From a bacterium (GTDB lineage: Bacteria > UBP14 > UBA6098 > JAFGQG01): a DNA stretch of 41,844 nucleotides. The notes below the pieces were generated by a model. That model worked only from the letters and a program-made list of their open reading frames with translations. It ran no database searches and was not told the origin of the DNA. Below, one piece after another: positions 10,221-41,164 of this stretch (within the stretch, counting starts at the first letter, position 1; every line of letters begins with the position of its first letter). The stretch lies in assembly GCA_016930435.1 (NCBI GenBank), contig JAFGGQ010000063.1, forward strand, positions 1 to 41,844, in the 5' to 3' direction. A program made the position numbers and the translations under genes.

Positions 10221-12212
10221 CTATTCATATCTTAGCGCTTCAATGGGGTCGAGTTTAGATGCTTTATTAGCTGGATACATTCCGAAGAAAATACCCACCA
10301 GGACAGCGAAGCCGAAGGAAAGCACCACAGAACTCATTGTAACAACGGATTTCCCTCCGTCAGCAGACATGAAGCGGGGACCCATCATCCCAACCCCTAC
10401 GAACATATTACCCAGAGTACTGGCGAATACAATCCCAACTAAGATGCCCAGCAATCCTCCTACCAGGGCCAGGATGGTAGATTCGATCAGGAATTGCACC
10501 AGAATGTCCCGGCGCTTGGCACCTACTGCTTTCCTGATGCCGATCTCCCGGGTTCTCTCGGTTACCGAAACCAGCATGATGTTCATGATCCCGATGCCGC
10601 CAACAAGCAGAGCGATAGCGGCTATACAAGCAAGCATTAGTTTTAAAGTGCCCACGGTCTCTTCAATGGTGGTCTGGAACTCTTCCTGACTTCGAATACG
10701 GAAATCCTGCACTTTGTTATGGAGTTCAAACAATAGGTCATTCACTTCCGTTTGCACTGCCGATGTTTGCTCAGAGGTAAAGGACTGTATATAGATCGCG
10801 CTGAGTACATCACTTCCCGAAAAGCGCTTCTGGGCTGTAGTATAGGGGATGATGATCTGGTCGTCGAAATCTTCCCAGCCTACCCTGCCCTTCTCAGCTA
10901 ATACCCCAACGACCGTAAAGCGGTCATTACGAATCTTGATACTTTGCCCTACGGGATCGGTATCCTCAAACAGCTCATCCACGATGGTTTTTCCGACTAT
11001 GCAGACCTTTGCCCAGTTGGAAACGTCCTTTTCAGAGAGGAACCTGCCTTTATTTAACTCCAGATTCCGTATGAGCTTGTAAGGATAAGATGTACCTATG
11101 ATCATGGTATCCCAGTATTTATCCATATATTTTACGCGTTCATTACTTCGGACCAGCGGAGCCACTTCCTTGACACCCTGGACTTGTGTTTTAATAGCAT
11201 CTACGTTATCCTGAGTCAAGCCATCAGAGCGACCGCGCCACTCCAGTGCCTCCTCCTTGGTCTCCGCCCGTGCCGGAAAAATCATCACCACATTGGAACC
11301 GAGCTTCTCAATCTGTGAAGTGATTTGGTATTTTGCTCCCTCCCCGATACCCAGCGTTCCGATTACTGCCGCAACCCCAATGATTATTCCCAGCATGGTT
11401 AGAAAGGACCGAAGCTTGTTTCCCAGCAATCCCTTATAACCGGACGAAAAACCGGACATAAGGCTTCCCCAGAGACTACTCTTACGGTGGGATAGGGTAT
11501 AATGTTCATCTAAGTCTTCAGAATCGGGCCTATTTCTCATTTCCTCGATGATCTGCCCATCCCTTACCCGAATAACCCGATCTGCATACTTTGCTATTTC
11601 AGGGTCATGGGTGACCAGTACTATTGTTTTACCCTGACGGTTAAGACTCCGGAAGATTTCCATGATCTCTTTGCCCGATGTGGTATCCAGGTTCCCGGTG
11701 GGTTCGTCGGCAAGGATTATCTGGGGATTATTAACCAGTGCCCGGGCAATAGCTACCCGTTGTCTTTCGCCGCCGGACATTTTATTCGGAAAATGATGAG
11801 CCCGGTGGGATAGATTAACCGCTTTCAGAGCATCCAGAGCCATCTTGTGACGCTCCCCCTTGATCATGCCGGCGTAAAGAAGTGGCAGTTCAACATTGCT
11901 AAGCGCCGAAGTCCGGGGAAGCAGGTTGAAGGTTTGGAATACAAAACCGATGAGTTTGTTCCGAATATCTGAAAGTTGATCCTCGGTAAGATCATCCACC
12001 CGTTGATCGTGGAGCAGGTATTCCCCGGAGGTAGGCTTGGAAAGACAACCGATTATATCCATTAGAGTCGTTTTTCCGGAACCGGAAGCGCCCATTATAG
12101 AGACGAATTCACCCTTCTCAACCTCCAGAGAGATCCCCCTCAAAGCCTCCACCGATACCTGTCCCATCTGAAATCTCTTTTTTATATCTATTGCTTTTAT
12201 TAAAGTTGACAT
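10221..12212 (-). CDS. macB: MacB-type ABC transporter (ATPase-permease fusion)
   Basis: A 663-residue fusion. An N-terminal ABC ATPase (Walker [10 protein letters not shown] at 41-49, signature SGGERQR, Walker [11 protein letters not shown]) is followed by a linker and a MacB/FtsX permease. The permease has one helix near 280 ([19 protein letters not shown]), a large periplasmic domain, and three C-terminal helices including the [19 protein letters not shown] loop. MacB-type pumps drive export of lipopeptides, heme precursors or macrolides through an adaptor and TolC. The start is ATG 12212, whose SD AAGGA overlaps the adaptor gene's TAA 16 bases upstream; a longer in-frame extension would overlap the adaptor. 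It is the last gene of the operon. Substrate unknown. Confidence 0.9.
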
Positions 12213-12228: not shown

Positions 12229-13653
12229 TTACATTGGGGGTCGCCCAAAGTCGCCTTTATTTGACTCAGATGTCTCAACCTTGGATGGTGATAGCAAAAC
12301 CTTTTGCCCTTCTTTTAATCCTGAGAGTATCTCTATGTTGACCTCGCCTTCCAGTCCGGTTTCTACAACAACAACTTCGATTTTATCCCCCTCCGGTATT
12401 TTTACCTTAAACTGTTGATCCTCTTCATAAACCGCTTCGATGGGAACAACCAGTGTATTTCTGGTTTGAGCTATGATGATGTCCAGGTCGCCGGTCATTC
12501 CTGGCTTTATTAGTTCAATCCCGTTATCTTCGACAATTTCAGGGGGGATTGGGGGAGAGCCGGGGATGGTCCCGACTGCTAGTTCCGGCCTTCCTAATCC
12601 AAACTCTTTCAATTTCTCATCTATAGCCATCCTCATTTGGTCGCGGTCTAAGCCCTGCTGTGAAAGCTTTTGCATGGTATTTCTAATCTCCTTCTGCTGT
12701 TTTTCATTGAGCTGGGCAAGGATATTTTCCATCCCTTTCCGCTGAGATTGCCGGTCATCCTCCCTCTGTAATTGGCCTGAAGCAGAACCAATTATCTCCA
12801 CTTCTACCGGATAAACAACAATATTGTTGGATTGGATTCCGGCTGGAGCAATTTTTTTCACACGACCCCGGTAGATTTTACCTCGGATTGCGTCAAATCC
12901 AATATCCACAGGTTGTCCAGTTTTTACCTGGCCCACATCTACCTCGTTGATGTTGGTTTTCACTATCAATTTACTGAGGTCTGCGATGACCATCAGAACC
13001 GTTCCGCCACCCCCAACGGATTGAGTACCCGAAGTAATCATCTCACCCTCCTCAATGCTGCAATCAAGAACCACTCCGGACATTGGGGATTTTATAATGA
13101 AATTATCAAACCTCATCTCCGACAAAGCCTGAGCCATATTTATACTATTACCACCAAGAGTAAGCCATAATTGCTTTTCCGAAAGTTCATGAGAGATCTT
13201 GCTGTTCTCAAAGGATTTTTGGGCGTCTTCCACTTCTTTAAGTGCTATGAAGCCCTTTTCGTATAATTCTTCTTTCCTTTTTAAATTACGCTCCGCTTCT
13301 TCCCGATTCAGCATGGCTTGCTCGTAAGAGGCCCGTGACTGAGCAATCTGCTTGGCCATTGATGATTCCTGCTGGATAAGCACCAGCCGATCACCTGCCT
13401 TCACGCTGTCCCCTTCTTCAACATAGATGGCTTTTACTTCCCCGGAGAATTCGGATTTAATATCCACAGTAGTCAGAGGTTCTACGGTTCCGCTTTCCGT
13501 AACTTTAAGCACAATATCATTCCTGCCTACGGTTGCCGTAACCAGTTGGTTATTGTTTTTGGCTTTTTCGCCGGGTAGTATTTTTAAAAAAAGAACCAGT
13601 GCAAAAACCAGGATAACTAATGCACTTATTATGATAATGACTTTTTTCTTCAT
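12229..13653 (-). CDS. macA: MacA/HlyD-family periplasmic adaptor protein
   Basis: The 474-residue adaptor links MacB to TolC. It has an N-terminal membrane anchor (KKKVIIIISALVILVFALVL) and a biotinyl-lipoyl-like half (GTVEPLTTVDIKSEFSGEV to EGDSVKAGDRL, about 55-95). An alpha-hairpin (about 98-165) precedes the second lipoyl half (IIKSPMSGVVLDCSIEEGE). A beta-barrel region and membrane-proximal domain end in EGQKVLLSP. Odd feature: about residues 295-380 form a Gln/Glu/Lys-rich helical insert followed by a Pro-rich stretch (IPGSPPIPPEIV) inside the barrel region, making the protein longer than typical MacA. The start ATG follows AGGAGG with 5-base spacing. It lies 43 bases behind tolC and 16 ahead of macB. 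Confidence 0.9.
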   Translation of the reverse strand: MKKKVIIIISALVILVFALVLFLKILPGEKAKNNNQLVTATVGRNDIVLKVTESGTVEPLTTVDIKSEFSGEVKAIYVEEGDSVKAGDRLVLIQQESSMAKQIAQSRASYEQAMLNREEAERNLKRKEELYEKGFIALKEVEDAQKSFENSKISHELSEKQLWLTLGGNSINMAQALSEMRFDNFIIKSPMSGVVLDCSIEEGEMITSGTQSVGGGGTVLMVIADLSKLIVKTNINEVDVGQVKTGQPVDIGFDAIRGKIYRGRVKKIAPAGIQSNNIVVYPVEVEIIGSASGQLQREDDRQSQRKGMENILAQLNEKQQKEIRNTMQKLSQQGLDRDQMRMAIDEKLKEFGLGRPELAVGTIPGSPPIPPEIVEDNGIELIKPGMTGDLDIIIAQTRNTLVVPIEAVYEEDQQFKVKIPEGDKIEVVVVETGLEGEVNIEILSGLKEGQKVLLSPSKVETSESNKGDFGRPPM

Positions 13654-13696: not shown

Positions 13697-15061
13697 TTAT
13701 TCAATTTCATAGGGTGGCTGGCCCGTGACCATATTAAACTTCGCCCGTGCATAAAGATAATCATAAACAGCCCGGATATAATTTAATTCACTGCTTGTCA
13801 GAGCCACTCCGGCGTCGAGAACCTCGGTGATGGGAGCGGTTTGGGTCTCATAGCGACCCTTTGATGAATTATAATTATCTTCTGCTGATGCCACTTGCTT
13901 TTCGGTCAATTCAATCTTCTTTAATGAAGTAGTCAGGTTCAGGTAAGCCACTTTAACTTCCAGCTCTATCTTCTGCTGCAATTCTAACAGATCAAGCTGG
14001 GCATTTGAGAAGTCGATTTTAGCGGACTTGACAGCTCTTGTTTTGTCGCCTCCATAAAACAAAGGAACATTAAGGTTCAGTCCCACTTGCCAGCTGGAAT
14101 TTAAATCCCAGTTTTCACGGCTTATCTCTGTTTGGCCCAATACATAATCATCCATAAAAGCGGAATAATTGCCGTTTAGGGACAATGATGGCCAGCGGTT
14201 GATCTGGGCAAGCTGGATATTGTATTTCCGGGTAAGGGTATTGGCCTGCTGTTGTTGTATCTCTGACCGCTCTTTAAGGGCAAGCCGGGTATTAGCCTCC
14301 AGGTCGATTAGGCCTGATATTTCCAAAGGGATCGGCTTTATTGATAAAGGGGTGTCCAGTGGAAGACTCATGACCTGGTTCAATTCGGCCTGGGTAATTT
14401 CCAGATCACCCTTAGCTTGAATGGAATCCAATTGGGCACTAGTGTGCTCAACCCGGGCCTTTAAAATATCTGACCGGGGAACTAAACCCAATTCAAATTG
14501 AGCCTCTGCAAAGGCAAGATCATGTTTTTTCCGAATCAGGCTTTCCAACCTTAGCTTATATAGCTCCTGGCTCTCCAGGAAGTTGAAATACTTAGAGGCT
14601 ACCTCCATCATAAGGGACCTTTGATCGATAATAAATTGCTGCTCGGAAGATGTTAAGGCTAACCTCGATTTTTTGGTGCTAATAAGATTCCGACCACCGT
14701 TAAAAATGGTAACAGAAGCACCCAGTGTCAGGTTATAATGATTATCATCCCATTCAAGGGCGTCATACTGATCCGAAATGGTATAACCACCAGTCAGACT
14801 TGCTTTAGGCAGAAATTCCGACCAGGAATCCCTTAGCGCGATCCGGGATTGCTCCAGATCACCCCTGGACTGAATGAGCCGATAGGAGTTTAATACTGCT
14901 ATACTGATACAGTCATCAAGGTCCAGTGAGTCCCCAATGTTTAATGAGGATATCTCTACATCTGCATAGCTGGTTAAAATGCAGAAAAATAAAATACTGA
15001 ATATTATGACTATATTGCGTTTATACTTTCCTATGCAATAGCTGAAAAATGATTTTAAGAT
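13697..15061 (-). CDS. tolC: TolC-family outer-membrane efflux protein with apparent ATC start
   Basis: The minus-strand frame is open from the stop at 13697 back past 15061. It encodes a signal peptide (RNIVIIFSILFFCILTS then YADVE) and then a full TolC-type OEP repeat protein: LDDCISIAVLNSY, SEFLPKASLTGGY, later RWPSLSLNGNYSAF and YNSSKGRYETQTAPITEVLDA. Length from 15061 is 454 residues, normal for TolC. The only strong ribosome site is AAGGAGG at 15073-15067, exactly 5 bases ahead of an in-frame ATC at 15061-15059. There is no in-frame ATG, GTG or TTG before the signal peptide. The first ATG (14611) would remove the signal peptide and half the first barrel repeat. It is the first gene of the tolC-macA-macB operon. 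Confidence 0.85.
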   Translation of the reverse strand: MLKSFFSYCIGKYKRNIVIIFSILFFCILTSYADVEISSLNIGDSLDLDDCISIAVLNSYRLIQSRGDLEQSRIALRDSWSEFLPKASLTGGYTISDQYDALEWDDNHYNLTLGASVTIFNGGRNLISTKKSRLALTSSEQQFIIDQRSLMMEVASKYFNFLESQELYKLRLESLIRKKHDLAFAEAQFELGLVPRSDILKARVEHTSAQLDSIQAKGDLEITQAELNQVMSLPLDTPLSIKPIPLEISGLIDLEANTRLALKERSEIQQQQANTLTRKYNIQLAQINRWPSLSLNGNYSAFMDDYVLGQTEISRENWDLNSSWQVGLNLNVPLFYGGDKTRAVKSAKIDFSNAQLDLLELQQKIELEVKVAYLNLTTSLKKIELTEKQVASAEDNYNSSKGRYETQTAPITEVLDAGVALTSSELNYIRAVYDYLYARAKFNMVTGQPPYEIE

Positions 15062-15138
15062 AGCTGCCTCCTTTCTACAAATAAAATTACTGTTAAAAGT
15101 TAGACAATCAAAAGCATGGGGTGTTTAATTATTTTTGA

Positions 15139-15762: not shown

Positions 15763-16572
15763 ATGAAATACACCAAGATTATTTTATATTTATGCCTGTT
15801 AATATTCTTGATCGGGGTCCAATTACTTTATGCGGACATCACTTTTCTGCCATTGGGACGTTCCTGGGCGGGTAATGCCGAACTTCCACTCCCATTGGGT
15901 GTCGGGATCACTTACTATCATCAGGAACAGGATTATCACATATCAAAACTTACATTAAACGAAGAGCCTTTATCGCAGGAAACCCTGGATACCCTGGGGG
16001 TTTTTAATATCAGTACTGAATGGAATTTTCTCTTGGACGCATGGGTACTACCATTTTTCAATGTTTTCGGTATTATGGGAAAAGTCTGGGGGGTCACGGA
16101 GGTCGATATCAATGAGATGGAGGGTATGGATATCGACCTTGATAATATTCAAAATATTGAATATGATGGTTGGATGTATGGAGGCGGAGGAACCCTGGCC
16201 GGTGGTGGCGGTATCTTTTTCGGTTCGGTCACTGCAACCATCACCAAGACCAATCTGGATGTAGCCACTTCCAGTGTGCGAGCCTGGGTTATGGCCCCCA
16301 AAGCAGGTGTAGTCGTAGAAAATTTATCCTTCTTCAATTCGGTCAACCTGTGGCTTGGAGCGATGTACCAGAATTCCGAAGAAAGCCACCAGGGTCATGT
16401 CGAAGTTCCCCTATTCGGAGAGCTGGAATACAAGGTAAAATTACACCAGGAAGAGCCCTGGAGTTACCAGTTGGGATTGGTTGCAGAATTGAGTAAAAGG
16501 GTCATACTGGCCATGGAAGGGGGCATGGGGGGCAGAAAACAACTATCCGCTACACTCCAATACCGTTTCTGA
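15763..16572 (+). CDS. Outer-membrane beta-barrel protein, unknown function
   Basis: A 269-residue exported protein with a Sec signal peptide (KIILYLCLLIFLIGVQLLYA, cleavage near LYADI). It is rich in Gly and aromatic residues with alternating strand patterns, and a poly-Gly turn (GGGGTLAGGGGIFFG) lies near 145-160. It ends LQYRF; a terminal aromatic is the normal insertion signal of barrel proteins. The ATG at 15763 is preceded by GGGATGG-like purines but no clean SD. The 140 bases between it and the histidine-kinase relic hold nothing recognisable. It converges with the next gene. I do not know its family. Confidence 0.65.
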   Translation: MKYTKIILYLCLLIFLIGVQLLYADITFLPLGRSWAGNAELPLPLGVGITYYHQEQDYHISKLTLNEEPLSQETLDTLGVFNISTEWNFLLDAWVLPFFNVFGIMGKVWGVTEVDINEMEGMDIDLDNIQNIEYDGWMYGGGGTLAGGGGIFFGSVTATITKTNLDVATSSVRAWVMAPKAGVVVENLSFFNSVNLWLGAMYQNSEESHQGHVEVPLFGELEYKVKLHQEEPWSYQLGLVAELSKRVILAMEGGMGGRKQLSATLQYRF

Positions 16573-37282: not shown

Positions 37283-40200
37283 TTACTTGACCAGGATCAT
37301 CTTGTGGGTATATTCATTTCCCCCTATCCAAAGGCGATAGAGATATATCCCCGAGGACATTGGTTGGCCTGAAGAGTTTTGGCCATCCCAGTGAATATTA
37401 TGGATCCCCGCTTGCCAAAATTCGGTTTTAGTGCTCCTGACCAGTTTACCTTGAATGTCAAATATCTCTAATTTGACCTCTGCAGGTTGAGGCAGAGCAA
37501 ATGAAATGAAGGTCTGGCTGTTGAATGGATTAGGGTAATTGCCCAACAACTCCACCCGGTCAGGCAATATACATCTAACCGTGATTGCCCAACGGGCGTT
37601 ACAAGAGCTTGAAAGGCAAGATACCACACGCATATCACAAGTCTGGTCGCCATCTGTAACTATGAAGTCGAATCCCTCCGGAAAATCACCTGGATCCCAT
37701 TTCAGGTTGGTTTCCTGGTTGACTCTCAATATCCAGCTCATGGATGCAGCAGTCTGCTTGATATCCCTAACATAGATTAAGTTGGCATCAGAATTCGGCT
37801 CTTCTAACCAAATGGAATAATATTTGAAAGGAGGGGAAGGAGGCAATATCCGGTCAAGGTTATCCCTTCCGGAAATCCCTTTATCATCCCACCCGATATA
37901 GCAAGAATCCTGGATAAAACCACTTTCAGCGATGATCGGGATCAATATTTCGGGTCGCCCGGTTCGGAAAAGAGCCCGTCCGGGTACCGACCATCCCGTC
38001 GCATGAAAATCGCCTTCCGATTCGGAAAACATCCAGTAGCCCAAACCCACCTGCAGGTAGGATGATGCAAGTTCGTAGTTTCCTCCCGCATTATCAAACC
38101 AGTAATATGTGCCGGTACAGGGGATGCTGTCCTCAAAAGTATAGGGAACCCCGATCATATTCCATCCGGGATACAGATGCATAGAATACTCTTCCACGGG
38201 TACACCGGCATAACGGGTTTGTATAGTATCCAGTGCATAGAGCCAGTAACCCTTACCGGCTTCGGGATAGAGCTCAATCCGATAAATACCCGCTTCCGGA
38301 TCGTACCAATACACATCGAACAGCATTCCCGGAAGAAGTTCTGCAAAAGTAAGATCGTTACGGGGGAGTAATGGGAATGAAATCAGGTGCCAGCCGGGCT
38401 TGAATAATAGTTCTCGGGTGAAAACTTCAAGGTGCCGGTAATGGATGAAGAGATTGGCATCATCCATAGCCGAAATCGTGGTGTCAGTGTGCATATCGAT
38501 AATGGGACCATCAGCATATTGAATGGTCATTCGCCCCTCCGGAATGTCCCCGGTATTCCACCAGACGCTCCAAATAGAAGTGTCCGGTTCGACATCGATC
38601 TCGATTTCCCATGAAAGGGAATAATCGTGCGCGCTCTTGATATCCCGCTGTAATTTCTGAAAATAGGGATAGATAAAGTCCGCCATGGGGAAATAAGCCT
38701 TCAGCTTTTGGCCGGAGGGCACGATACTCTGGTCCAGGCCGGGATTAAAGGTTTCATCGCCGAATCGAGAAACCCCAAAGTGAAGAAAAACCGGATATTC
38801 CGCCTCGGTTGCTTCCACCTTTAAGGGCACCAGCCACTCCATAAGGTCCCAGAGTACCAGGAAAAAGCCTTCCCGGGTATAGGCAATGACCGACCCTCCA
38901 TCTATTTCCACATCGCGGAAATCCAACCGGGTGAATGAACCCTGTATCCCATCAGGGTTTACAAGGTAACGTATATATAATAATTCCGAGTCACCGGTTA
39001 ACTCCGTTCCATTGCCCGAAATAGTAATATCTCCCCCGCTAACGGAGTATGACAATGAGGATGCCCACGGCTCGGTGATGGTTCCGGCGGAATTTATCCC
39101 AAGGGGTATCAGAACTTCCTCATCAGCGGATATAGTAAATTCTAATCTGGTAATCTCAAACTGGGTTAACTCTTCGGTGAAGATAGGTATCAATACGGTA
39201 TCTCCCAGGTGGCCTTCACGTTCGGGTAGGTACATTGACAGCATTTCGAAGTGAATGCTCCAGCAAAAAGGCTCCTGCAGAGGGTTCTGTTCACAGAAAT
39301 CGGGTGGCATATCGGCGGCGGCAAGCAGGCATGCGAAGACGGTGTCGTATTCAGAGAACTCCATGCCTGCAACCGAGGGGTAGAAATGCAGGGTACCGCC
39401 ATCCCAGTTCAGCGCCGGATTGGAAACATTATAAACGATTCTATTTACCTCGAAGATGATAGTTGATGCATCGACAGGGGTAAGATTATCCTCGATATTG
39501 ATTGTCATTTCAGGCAGTTCAGGGTAACCCAGCAGGGATCCTTCCGGAGGGAATTCCCCATAGGCGATGGGTCCGGAAAGGTCCATCTGGAAGCTACTTT
39601 CTAAAGTATCATTTAAGGGGCACCCTGATGAATCGGCGGCATAAGTCAGGGCATAATATACGATTTCCTCATCCCTGAAAGGGCTGCCGGGAGTGAAGGT
39701 CAGTGTAGGTTCGATGTATTCGAGTTCGGGGTCGCTGAGTCCATAGAAAACGCCATTGACCATAAATTCAAGTGAATGGTGTTCCAGAGCGATTGGTGAT
39801 TGGATATTCAGGAGTATCTCCTGAAAAGGGCAGGCGGATCGGGTTCCGGATATGGGGCTGATGAGTGATGCCTCTGGCCGTAAGCCGGTAGCCGGCATGC
39901 TGATATCACCCTCTACCGATTTCACTACCAGCGAACCCAGTACCGAATAGGTTACTTCCACTATTACAGTGAAAACAGTGTCGGAGATTGAGCCATCGGC
40001 ATAGAGTTCCCAGGATGTAGTGCCCACACCTCCTGCGGGAACTTCGCCGGGTACCAGGTCGTGGAGATAAGTTTCGCCGGAGACCAGTTCCAGGCCATCG
40101 GGAAGGGTTATTTCGGCTTGAGCATCATCAAGCTCAAAGATGCCGCTATTGCCTACCCAGAGACTGGCGAAGAAGGGTACGGCTTCGTAATTGCAGGGGT

Positions 40201-41164
40201 CTTCCACTATAATACTCAGGGGTAGCGTAAGGTCCACATCCTGTGCGCTGTAGAGTAAGCCTAATCCGTAGTACGTAGTAATTACCAGGCTGTCCCCGGG
40301 TGCAATGCTTACCGGGAACCACCACATCAGTACGGATGAATCGAAATAATATCCTGGTGAGATGGTATAATCCCAGACCACTGGCCAGAAATGCGGCCAT
40401 GCGCCAATTGCGAAACGGTCAGGGGGGGTGGCCTCTAACCCGGCCAGGATGCCCATGGCGATAAGTTGATCCTCGGGCCCGGCGGGACCCAGGGCGCTTT
40501 CATAAGCATGCCAGTAAAAGGGAATAGAATCCGGTCCCCAAAAATCATCCTCCAGTCCGCTGTATCTGCCCTGAGTAGCCAACGGCGCGCCATCATTTGC
40601 TCCCACCATTGTATCCAGTTGAAGCAGTAAGCCTACTTGCCGGCTACGGGAATCTATATTCACCATAGTATAACGGATCATGATGGTTCCGGTAGTATCA
40701 CGGGGATTAGTCAAATACACCGGCTGCAGTCTCTGGGTCACTTCTAAGATACCCGCTAAACGCCAGGTGCCCTCGATAAAACTCGAATCGCCGGAATGAG
40801 AATAGATTCGGAAGCTGTTGGTAATACCCATTGTATTAGGTCTGGAACTCTCCGCTCCATGACCATTCGTTGGATCCTGAGTAAAATAAACACCATCTAT
40901 ATTTATTATGGTCCAGGAACTCCAGGGGCGAAAAGGGTATTGATACATCAGGGCCCGATCATCCGGGTAAGTGCCGATATTGAATTGACCATCGGCATCA
41001 TCAAGCTGCACCCGGACGTAATCATTGTGAACAGAGATTACCGATTTAGAGGAATTAGGCTCGTTCATCGAGGATTTCCAGGCTTCATAGCGTCCGGTTT
41101 CCTGAGCATTGAGGAAGCTATAACAAAAAAGGGCTAATAAGGTGATTTGAAGGAATCTATTCAA
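37283..41164 (-). CDS. Large T9SS-secreted protein with cohesin-like domain and type A sorting signal
   Basis: A 1293-residue cell-surface or secreted protein. A signal peptide (FLQITLLALFCYSFLNAQ) leads into a long beta-rich region with Ig-like or CARDB-like segments. A cohesin-like domain lies at about 645-760 (GDTVLIPIF, then LLYIRYLVNPDG and LDFRDVEIDGG). A doubled GW-module (LFKPGWHLISFPL, LYPGWNMIGVPY) lies at about 920-1010, and the T9SS type A sorting domain at about 1208-1293. That last domain contains NYPNPFNSQTFISFALP, LEIFDIQGKLV and GIYLYRL and ends KMILVK. Such proteins are exported by the type IX system and anchored or released. The start is TTG 41164 with a weak SD. Ligand unknown. 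Confidence 0.88.
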   Translation of the reverse strand: MNRFLQITLLALFCYSFLNAQETGRYEAWKSSMNEPNSSKSVISVHNDYVRVQLDDADGQFNIGTYPDDRALMYQYPFRPWSSWTIINIDGVYFTQDPTNGHGAESSRPNTMGITNSFRIYSHSGDSSFIEGTWRLAGILEVTQRLQPVYLTNPRDTTGTIMIRYTMVNIDSRSRQVGLLLQLDTMVGANDGAPLATQGRYSGLEDDFWGPDSIPFYWHAYESALGPAGPEDQLIAMGILAGLEATPPDRFAIGAWPHFWPVVWDYTISPGYYFDSSVLMWWFPVSIAPGDSLVITTYYGLGLLYSAQDVDLTLPLSIIVEDPCNYEAVPFFASLWVGNSGIFELDDAQAEITLPDGLELVSGETYLHDLVPGEVPAGGVGTTSWELYADGSISDTVFTVIVEVTYSVLGSLVVKSVEGDISMPATGLRPEASLISPISGTRSACPFQEILLNIQSPIALEHHSLEFMVNGVFYGLSDPELEYIEPTLTFTPGSPFRDEEIVYYALTYAADSSGCPLNDTLESSFQMDLSGPIAYGEFPPEGSLLGYPELPEMTINIEDNLTPVDASTIIFEVNRIVYNVSNPALNWDGGTLHFYPSVAGMEFSEYDTVFACLLAAADMPPDFCEQNPLQEPFCWSIHFEMLSMYLPEREGHLGDTVLIPIFTEELTQFEITRLEFTISADEEVLIPLGINSAGTITEPWASSLSYSVSGGDITISGNGTELTGDSELLYIRYLVNPDGIQGSFTRLDFRDVEIDGGSVIAYTREGFFLVLWDLMEWLVPLKVEATEAEYPVFLHFGVSRFGDETFNPGLDQSIVPSGQKLKAYFPMADFIYPYFQKLQRDIKSAHDYSLSWEIEIDVEPDTSIWSVWWNTGDIPEGRMTIQYADGPIIDMHTDTTISAMDDANLFIHYRHLEVFTRELLFKPGWHLISFPLLPRNDLTFAELLPGMLFDVYWYDPEAGIYRIELYPEAGKGYWLYALDTIQTRYAGVPVEEYSMHLYPGWNMIGVPYTFEDSIPCTGTYYWFDNAGGNYELASSYLQVGLGYWMFSESEGDFHATGWSVPGRALFRTGRPEILIPIIAESGFIQDSCYIGWDDKGISGRDNLDRILPPSPPFKYYSIWLEEPNSDANLIYVRDIKQTAASMSWILRVNQETNLKWDPGDFPEGFDFIVTDGDQTCDMRVVSCLSSSCNARWAITVRCILPDRVELLGNYPNPFNSQTFISFALPQPAEVKLEIFDIQGKLVRSTKTEFWQAGIHNIHWDGQNSSGQPMSSGIYLYRLWIGGNEYTHKMILVK

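Follow-up and report, generated by a model that had tools for sequence, protein, structure and literature searches.

A conserved, probable AUC start codon of tolC in a TolC-MacA-MacB efflux operon and its proposed control by initiation factor IF3

The tolC-macA-macB operon and its start region

The window analysed here, a stretch of 41,844 nucleotides from a bacterium of the GTDB lineage UBP14; UBA6098; JAFGQG01 (contig JAFGGQ010000063.1), carries on its minus strand a putative operon for a TolC-type outer membrane channel, a MacA/HlyD-type adaptor and a MacB-type ABC transporter (Table 1). This row of OEP, HlyD/MacA and MacB genes is that of TolC-MacA-MacB tripartite efflux systems, and the adaptor and transporter genes (13653-10221) place the channel in such a system. 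What sets the locus apart is that the channel gene lies inside the operon and that its putative start is ATC. The OEP profile matches the protein twice (14920-14369 and 14290-13721), and both repeats score over the Pfam cut-off. The best NCBIfam match is type_I_sec_TolC (4.1e-43), which lies under the cut-off of that model. The adaptor gene begins 43 nt after tolC with its own ATG.

Table 1. Positions of the operon, of the tolC start signals and of the two infC genes (window coordinates unless a locus is given)
Feature	Position	Strand	Remarks
MacB-type ABC transporter	10221..12212	minus	start taken at ATG 12212; Pfam MacB_PCD, ABC_tran, FtsX
MacA/HlyD-type periplasmic adaptor	12229..13653	minus	ATG start; Pfam HlyD_D23, HlyD_3
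ATG-start ORF, 304 aa	13697..14611	minus	result of calling with ATG/GTG/TTG only
Full-length TolC-type outer membrane efflux protein, 454 aa	13697..15061	minus	Pfam OEP 1.3e-59, two repeats
Signal-peptide-like N-terminus (M)LKSFFSYCIGKYKRNIVIIFSILFFCILTSYAD	14960..15061	minus	Lys/Arg-rich n-region, then hydrophobic stretch
Putative tolC start codon ATC	15061-15059	minus	in frame with the OEP protein, no canonical alternative
Shine-Dalgarno AAGGAGG	15073-15067	minus	5 nt ahead of the start codon
infC, window's genome (G000)	L115:2034-2558		ATC start behind AAGGAGGT
infC, related genome (G001)	L161:4253-4774	minus	ATC start behind AAGGAGGT

The minus strand around the tolC start, read directly from 15121 to 14950, is ...TTTGTAGAAAGGAGGCAGCTATCTTAAAATCA... 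The original prediction was that the TolC frame is open upstream of its first ATG, that a strong Shine-Dalgarno sequence (SD) lies 5 bases ahead of an in-frame ATC, that no ATG, GTG or TTG precedes the signal peptide, and that standard gene callers truncate the protein at 14611. Direct reading bore out all of this. The OEP frame runs without a stop from ATG 14611 back to the TAA at 15127-15125 and is open from 15124. The spacer between the AAGGAGG motif and ATC is CAGCT. From the ATC through 150 codons there is no in-frame ATG, GTG or TTG; the first canonical codon is the ATG at codon 151, and it is here that the standard ORF listing begins. Thus a noncanonical codon lies in frame at a proper distance from a strong SD where a canonical start is absent.

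The N-terminus predicted from this codon resembles a signal peptide. Its hydrophobic stretch, IVIIFSILFFCI, has a mean hydropathy of 3.4, and the charged n-region and hydrophobic core exist only when translation begins at the ATC or nearby. The product from ATG 14611 has no such N-terminus and lacks much of OEP repeat 1.

The surroundings of the operon were also inspected. The next gene upstream of tolC (15763-16572) is divergent. Some 200 nt upstream of tolC, the minus strand also has a mini-ORF of 10 codons (15296-15264, ATGAGAGAATGCTTTGATAATTCTTTAGGTTAA) whose SD, AGGAGGGGG, is strong; it could be a leader peptide or a chance occurrence. Rfam gave no match anywhere in the window, and promoter- and terminator-like sites in it were no commoner than in shuffled sequences. 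A structured leader hiding the tolC SD was considered and found unsupported, as the fold was no better than that of shuffles in either of the two genomes compared below. Far from the operon, a large secreted protein (37283-41164, minus strand) ends in a sorting-like domain (NYPNPFN...GIYLYRL) that resembles those of proteins exported by type IX secretion in the FCB group, and this domain suggests the broad lineage of the source.

Conservation of the ATC start in a related genus

The comparison set comprised 17 genomes in the phylum, two of them in the family; the window's genome (G000) was the sole representative of its genus. Searches at genus, family, order, class and phylum level returned a single close tolC ortholog, in a separately assembled MAG of another genus of the same family (G001; MAG Zod_Metabat.733, record JAFGQG010000030.1). 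No third close relative was found: scans of genome contigs gave G001 alone, and viral contigs gave nothing. The two TolC proteins share 48-49% identity. The start region of the G001 gene, ATTATAAGGAGGCCAAAATCATACTA, contains AAGGAGG (L158:5011-5017) followed after 5 nt by an in-frame ATC, and the encoded hydrophobic stretch, IYGILFVSFCLI, has a mean hydropathy of 2.6. The original prediction had named the homologous start in a relative as the comparison to make, and an in-frame ATG elsewhere in a homologue as evidence against an ATC start. In G001 the ATC is retained with identical SD and spacing, and this nearest homologue has no usable in-frame ATG elsewhere.

The conservation is confined to the start signals. 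Around tolC, the background identity between the two genomes in shifted alignments is 0.30. Ungapped nucleotide identity is 28/87 over codons 2-30, 21/60 over the 60 nt that precede the SD, and 1/5 in the spacer, while the SD (7/7) and the ATC (3/3) are identical. Nothing but the SD, the spacer length and the ATC rises above the background, which is the pattern expected of a functional start. The codon is thus conserved in the single ortholog compared.

It is very improbable that tolC starts elsewhere, be it at ATG 14611, at a non-AUG codon farther upstream or in a different frame with a subsequent frameshift. ATG 14611 is the choice of standard callers, but a start there would drop the signal-peptide-like N-terminus together with much of OEP repeat 1, where the sequence is conserved with G001. 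In G001 the first canonical codon is a TTG at codon 28, which falls within the hydrophobic stretch and has no SD, and neither genome has an ATG or GTG in any frame from the SD to the signal-peptide core. That the ATC is a recent mutation or an artefact of sequencing or assembly, which evidence from one draft genome would have permitted (both orthologs come from draft metagenome-type assemblies), is the least probable explanation and is largely refuted, because SD and ATC are identical amid background-level identity in a separately assembled genus with the same spacing and no other start.

The genomic context before tolC differs between the two genomes, yet the ATC start is retained. In G001 a co-directional lipoprotein-like gene (L158:4073-4945) stops 77 nt before the tolC ATC. 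Contig C92 of G001 has tolC at its end, and contig C15 has the macA ortholog (60% identity) at its start, an arrangement that fits adjacency of the two genes without proving it.

Taken from the reading frames and their conservation, AUC is very probably the natural start codon of tolC in vivo. There is good support for a real and conserved AUC start of the channel gene in the TolC-MacA-MacB operon.

ATC starts and infC in the two genomes

We surveyed ORF starts in samples of 1.18 of 2.85 Mb (797 ORFs) for G000 and 0.82 Mb (509 ORFs) for G001. The samples took in every AAGGAGG-N4-8-ATC site of both genomes; other start patterns were surveyed in about 41% of G000 and about 21% of G001. There are 59 such sites in G000 against 28 for a reversed control pattern, and 48 against 47 in G001. 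Canonical starts behind an SD of at least 6 matches were found for 175 ORFs (G000) and 130 ORFs (G001). In both samples, infC and tolC alone came up as convincing genes in which an SD of this strength precedes an ATC and a canonical start is absent. The other survey matches (L093, L120, L126, L053, L248, L180 and L163) were judged to be chance or extended frames; those at other codons resemble chance. On the basis of this survey, we rejected the idea that the lineage tolerates ATC starts generally.

The infC gene, and with it the presence of IF3 in the organism, was established in both genomes by TIGR00168 (about 5e-65) and Pfam. In each of them, 7 nt separate the AAGGAGG of infC from its conserved ATC; in G000 there are two consecutive ATC codons, of which the second is the conserved one. 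The analogy of the tolC start to that of infC, drawn in the original prediction, therefore holds within these genomes, where infC itself begins with ATC. For distant TolC homologues from the class, and likewise for the remaining OEP genes of the two genomes, a canonical start is available close to the signal peptide, and in nearly all of them it is ATG.

Rare starts that are not conserved can also occur in G000. A yyaL/DUF255 (Thioredox_DsbH) gene (L124:8463-10568, minus strand, contig C145) has an apparent ATT start 7 nt from GGAGG and 55 codons without a canonical start, and its G001 ortholog (L228) has ATG. Because of this example, the case for the tolC start lies in its conservation and not in its mere occurrence. 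When a variant initiator tRNA was sought with aragorn in a partial sample of G000, one CAT tRNA and no GAT tRNA were found.

Proposed control of the efflux channel by IF3

IF3 destabilises 30S complexes at codons other than AUG, GUG and UUG (PMC5472188). The infC gene starts with AUU in E. coli, its Streptomyces counterpart with AUC, and these starts give feedback control (PMC5472188). We propose that tolC, as the first gene of the operon, would be translated from an AUC picked out by its strong SD. The initiator tRNA would pair with AU and mismatch at the third base; weak initiation and destabilisation by IF3 are therefore expected. Channel output would be low, and lower still when free IF3 is high; it would rise under a shortage of IF3 or impaired IF3 proofreading. 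The output of tolC would then move in step with that of infC, which has the same AUC start in the same genomes. We assign this model as a whole, with weak, IF3-sensitive initiation in step with infC, a probability of about 0.8. That the yield is low and that it responds to IF3 is what we infer from comparable genes: initiation at tolC is most likely kept low and IF3-sensitive, and repression by IF3 itself is likely on the same analogy. Because macA has its own ATG, the effect of IF3 may be specific to the channel and spare the adaptor.

Several known genes support the comparison. Like tolC, infC has a rare codon beginning with AU (AUU, AUC or AUA) behind a strong SD; it encodes IF3 itself and closes a feedback loop, whereas control of a channel gene would be one-way. 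Streptomyces sigR, a target of repression by IF3, has a conserved GTC behind the extended SD AGGAGGTG (PMC5472188). It resembles tolC in being a nontranslation gene that heads an operon and is missed by callers; it differs in its codon, in encoding a sigma factor and in that its IF3 effect is experimental (PMC5472188), where the tolC case comes from sequence. In S. aureus, cvfC1 (AUU) and ccpN (AUA), reported alongside the AUA start of infC, have conserved noncanonical starts with extended SDs and give about 10% of the AUG yield in poor medium; cvfC1 is also first in its operon (PMC13009471). Unlike tolC, these genes encode a small protein and a transcriptional repressor, and their starts were confirmed by ribosome profiling and reporters (PMC13009471). 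E. coli pcnB shares with tolC a rare start, and is, according to PMC9410913 and PMC13009471, the only E. coli gene besides infC with AUU; it encodes a poly(A) polymerase and has AUU instead of AUC. In the open-licence papers searched, no gene for an efflux or outer-membrane protein was seen to start in this way.

The same AUC could also be a fixed low-expression setting, real but serving just to keep the channel scarce, with IF3 sensitivity incidental and carrying no signal. This is quite possible, if somewhat short of an even chance. The AUU start of pcnB limits its translation (Binns and Masters 2002, as cited in PMC9410913), and all three S. aureus noncanonical starts that were tested cut the yield, that of cvfC1 with no dependence on the medium (PMC13009471). 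Against a merely fixed setting, the survey of the two genomes showed tolC to share its strong-SD ATC start with one further gene alone, infC, the classic IF3-regulated gene.

A further step beyond the IF3-sensitive model would make tolC and infC a two-gene AUC set under IF3, in which a disturbance of initiation derepresses the efflux channel and the ribosome acts as the sensor of the pump. We regard this as unlikely. The triggers may be a shortage of IF3 or drugs that bind the ribosome and disturb IF3 on the 30S subunit. Tetracyclines are reported to perturb IF3 there (PMC8273347), and a drug-sensing role for the tolC start is therefore imaginable.

Conserved starts other than AUG, GUG and UUG have been characterised in just a handful of bacterial genes. 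The kind of start described here is already known; the gene that carries it, an efflux channel, is unexpected. Callers limited to ATG, GTG and TTG cut such genes short; here the loss is 150 residues and takes in the putative signal peptide. A two-genome screen for a strong SD and a conserved ATC, ATT or ATA with no canonical start may uncover more IF3-controlled genes in uncultured lineages. If the proposed model is true, a channel that shares the rare start of the IF3 gene would extend IF3-type control to the export of drugs or metabolites.
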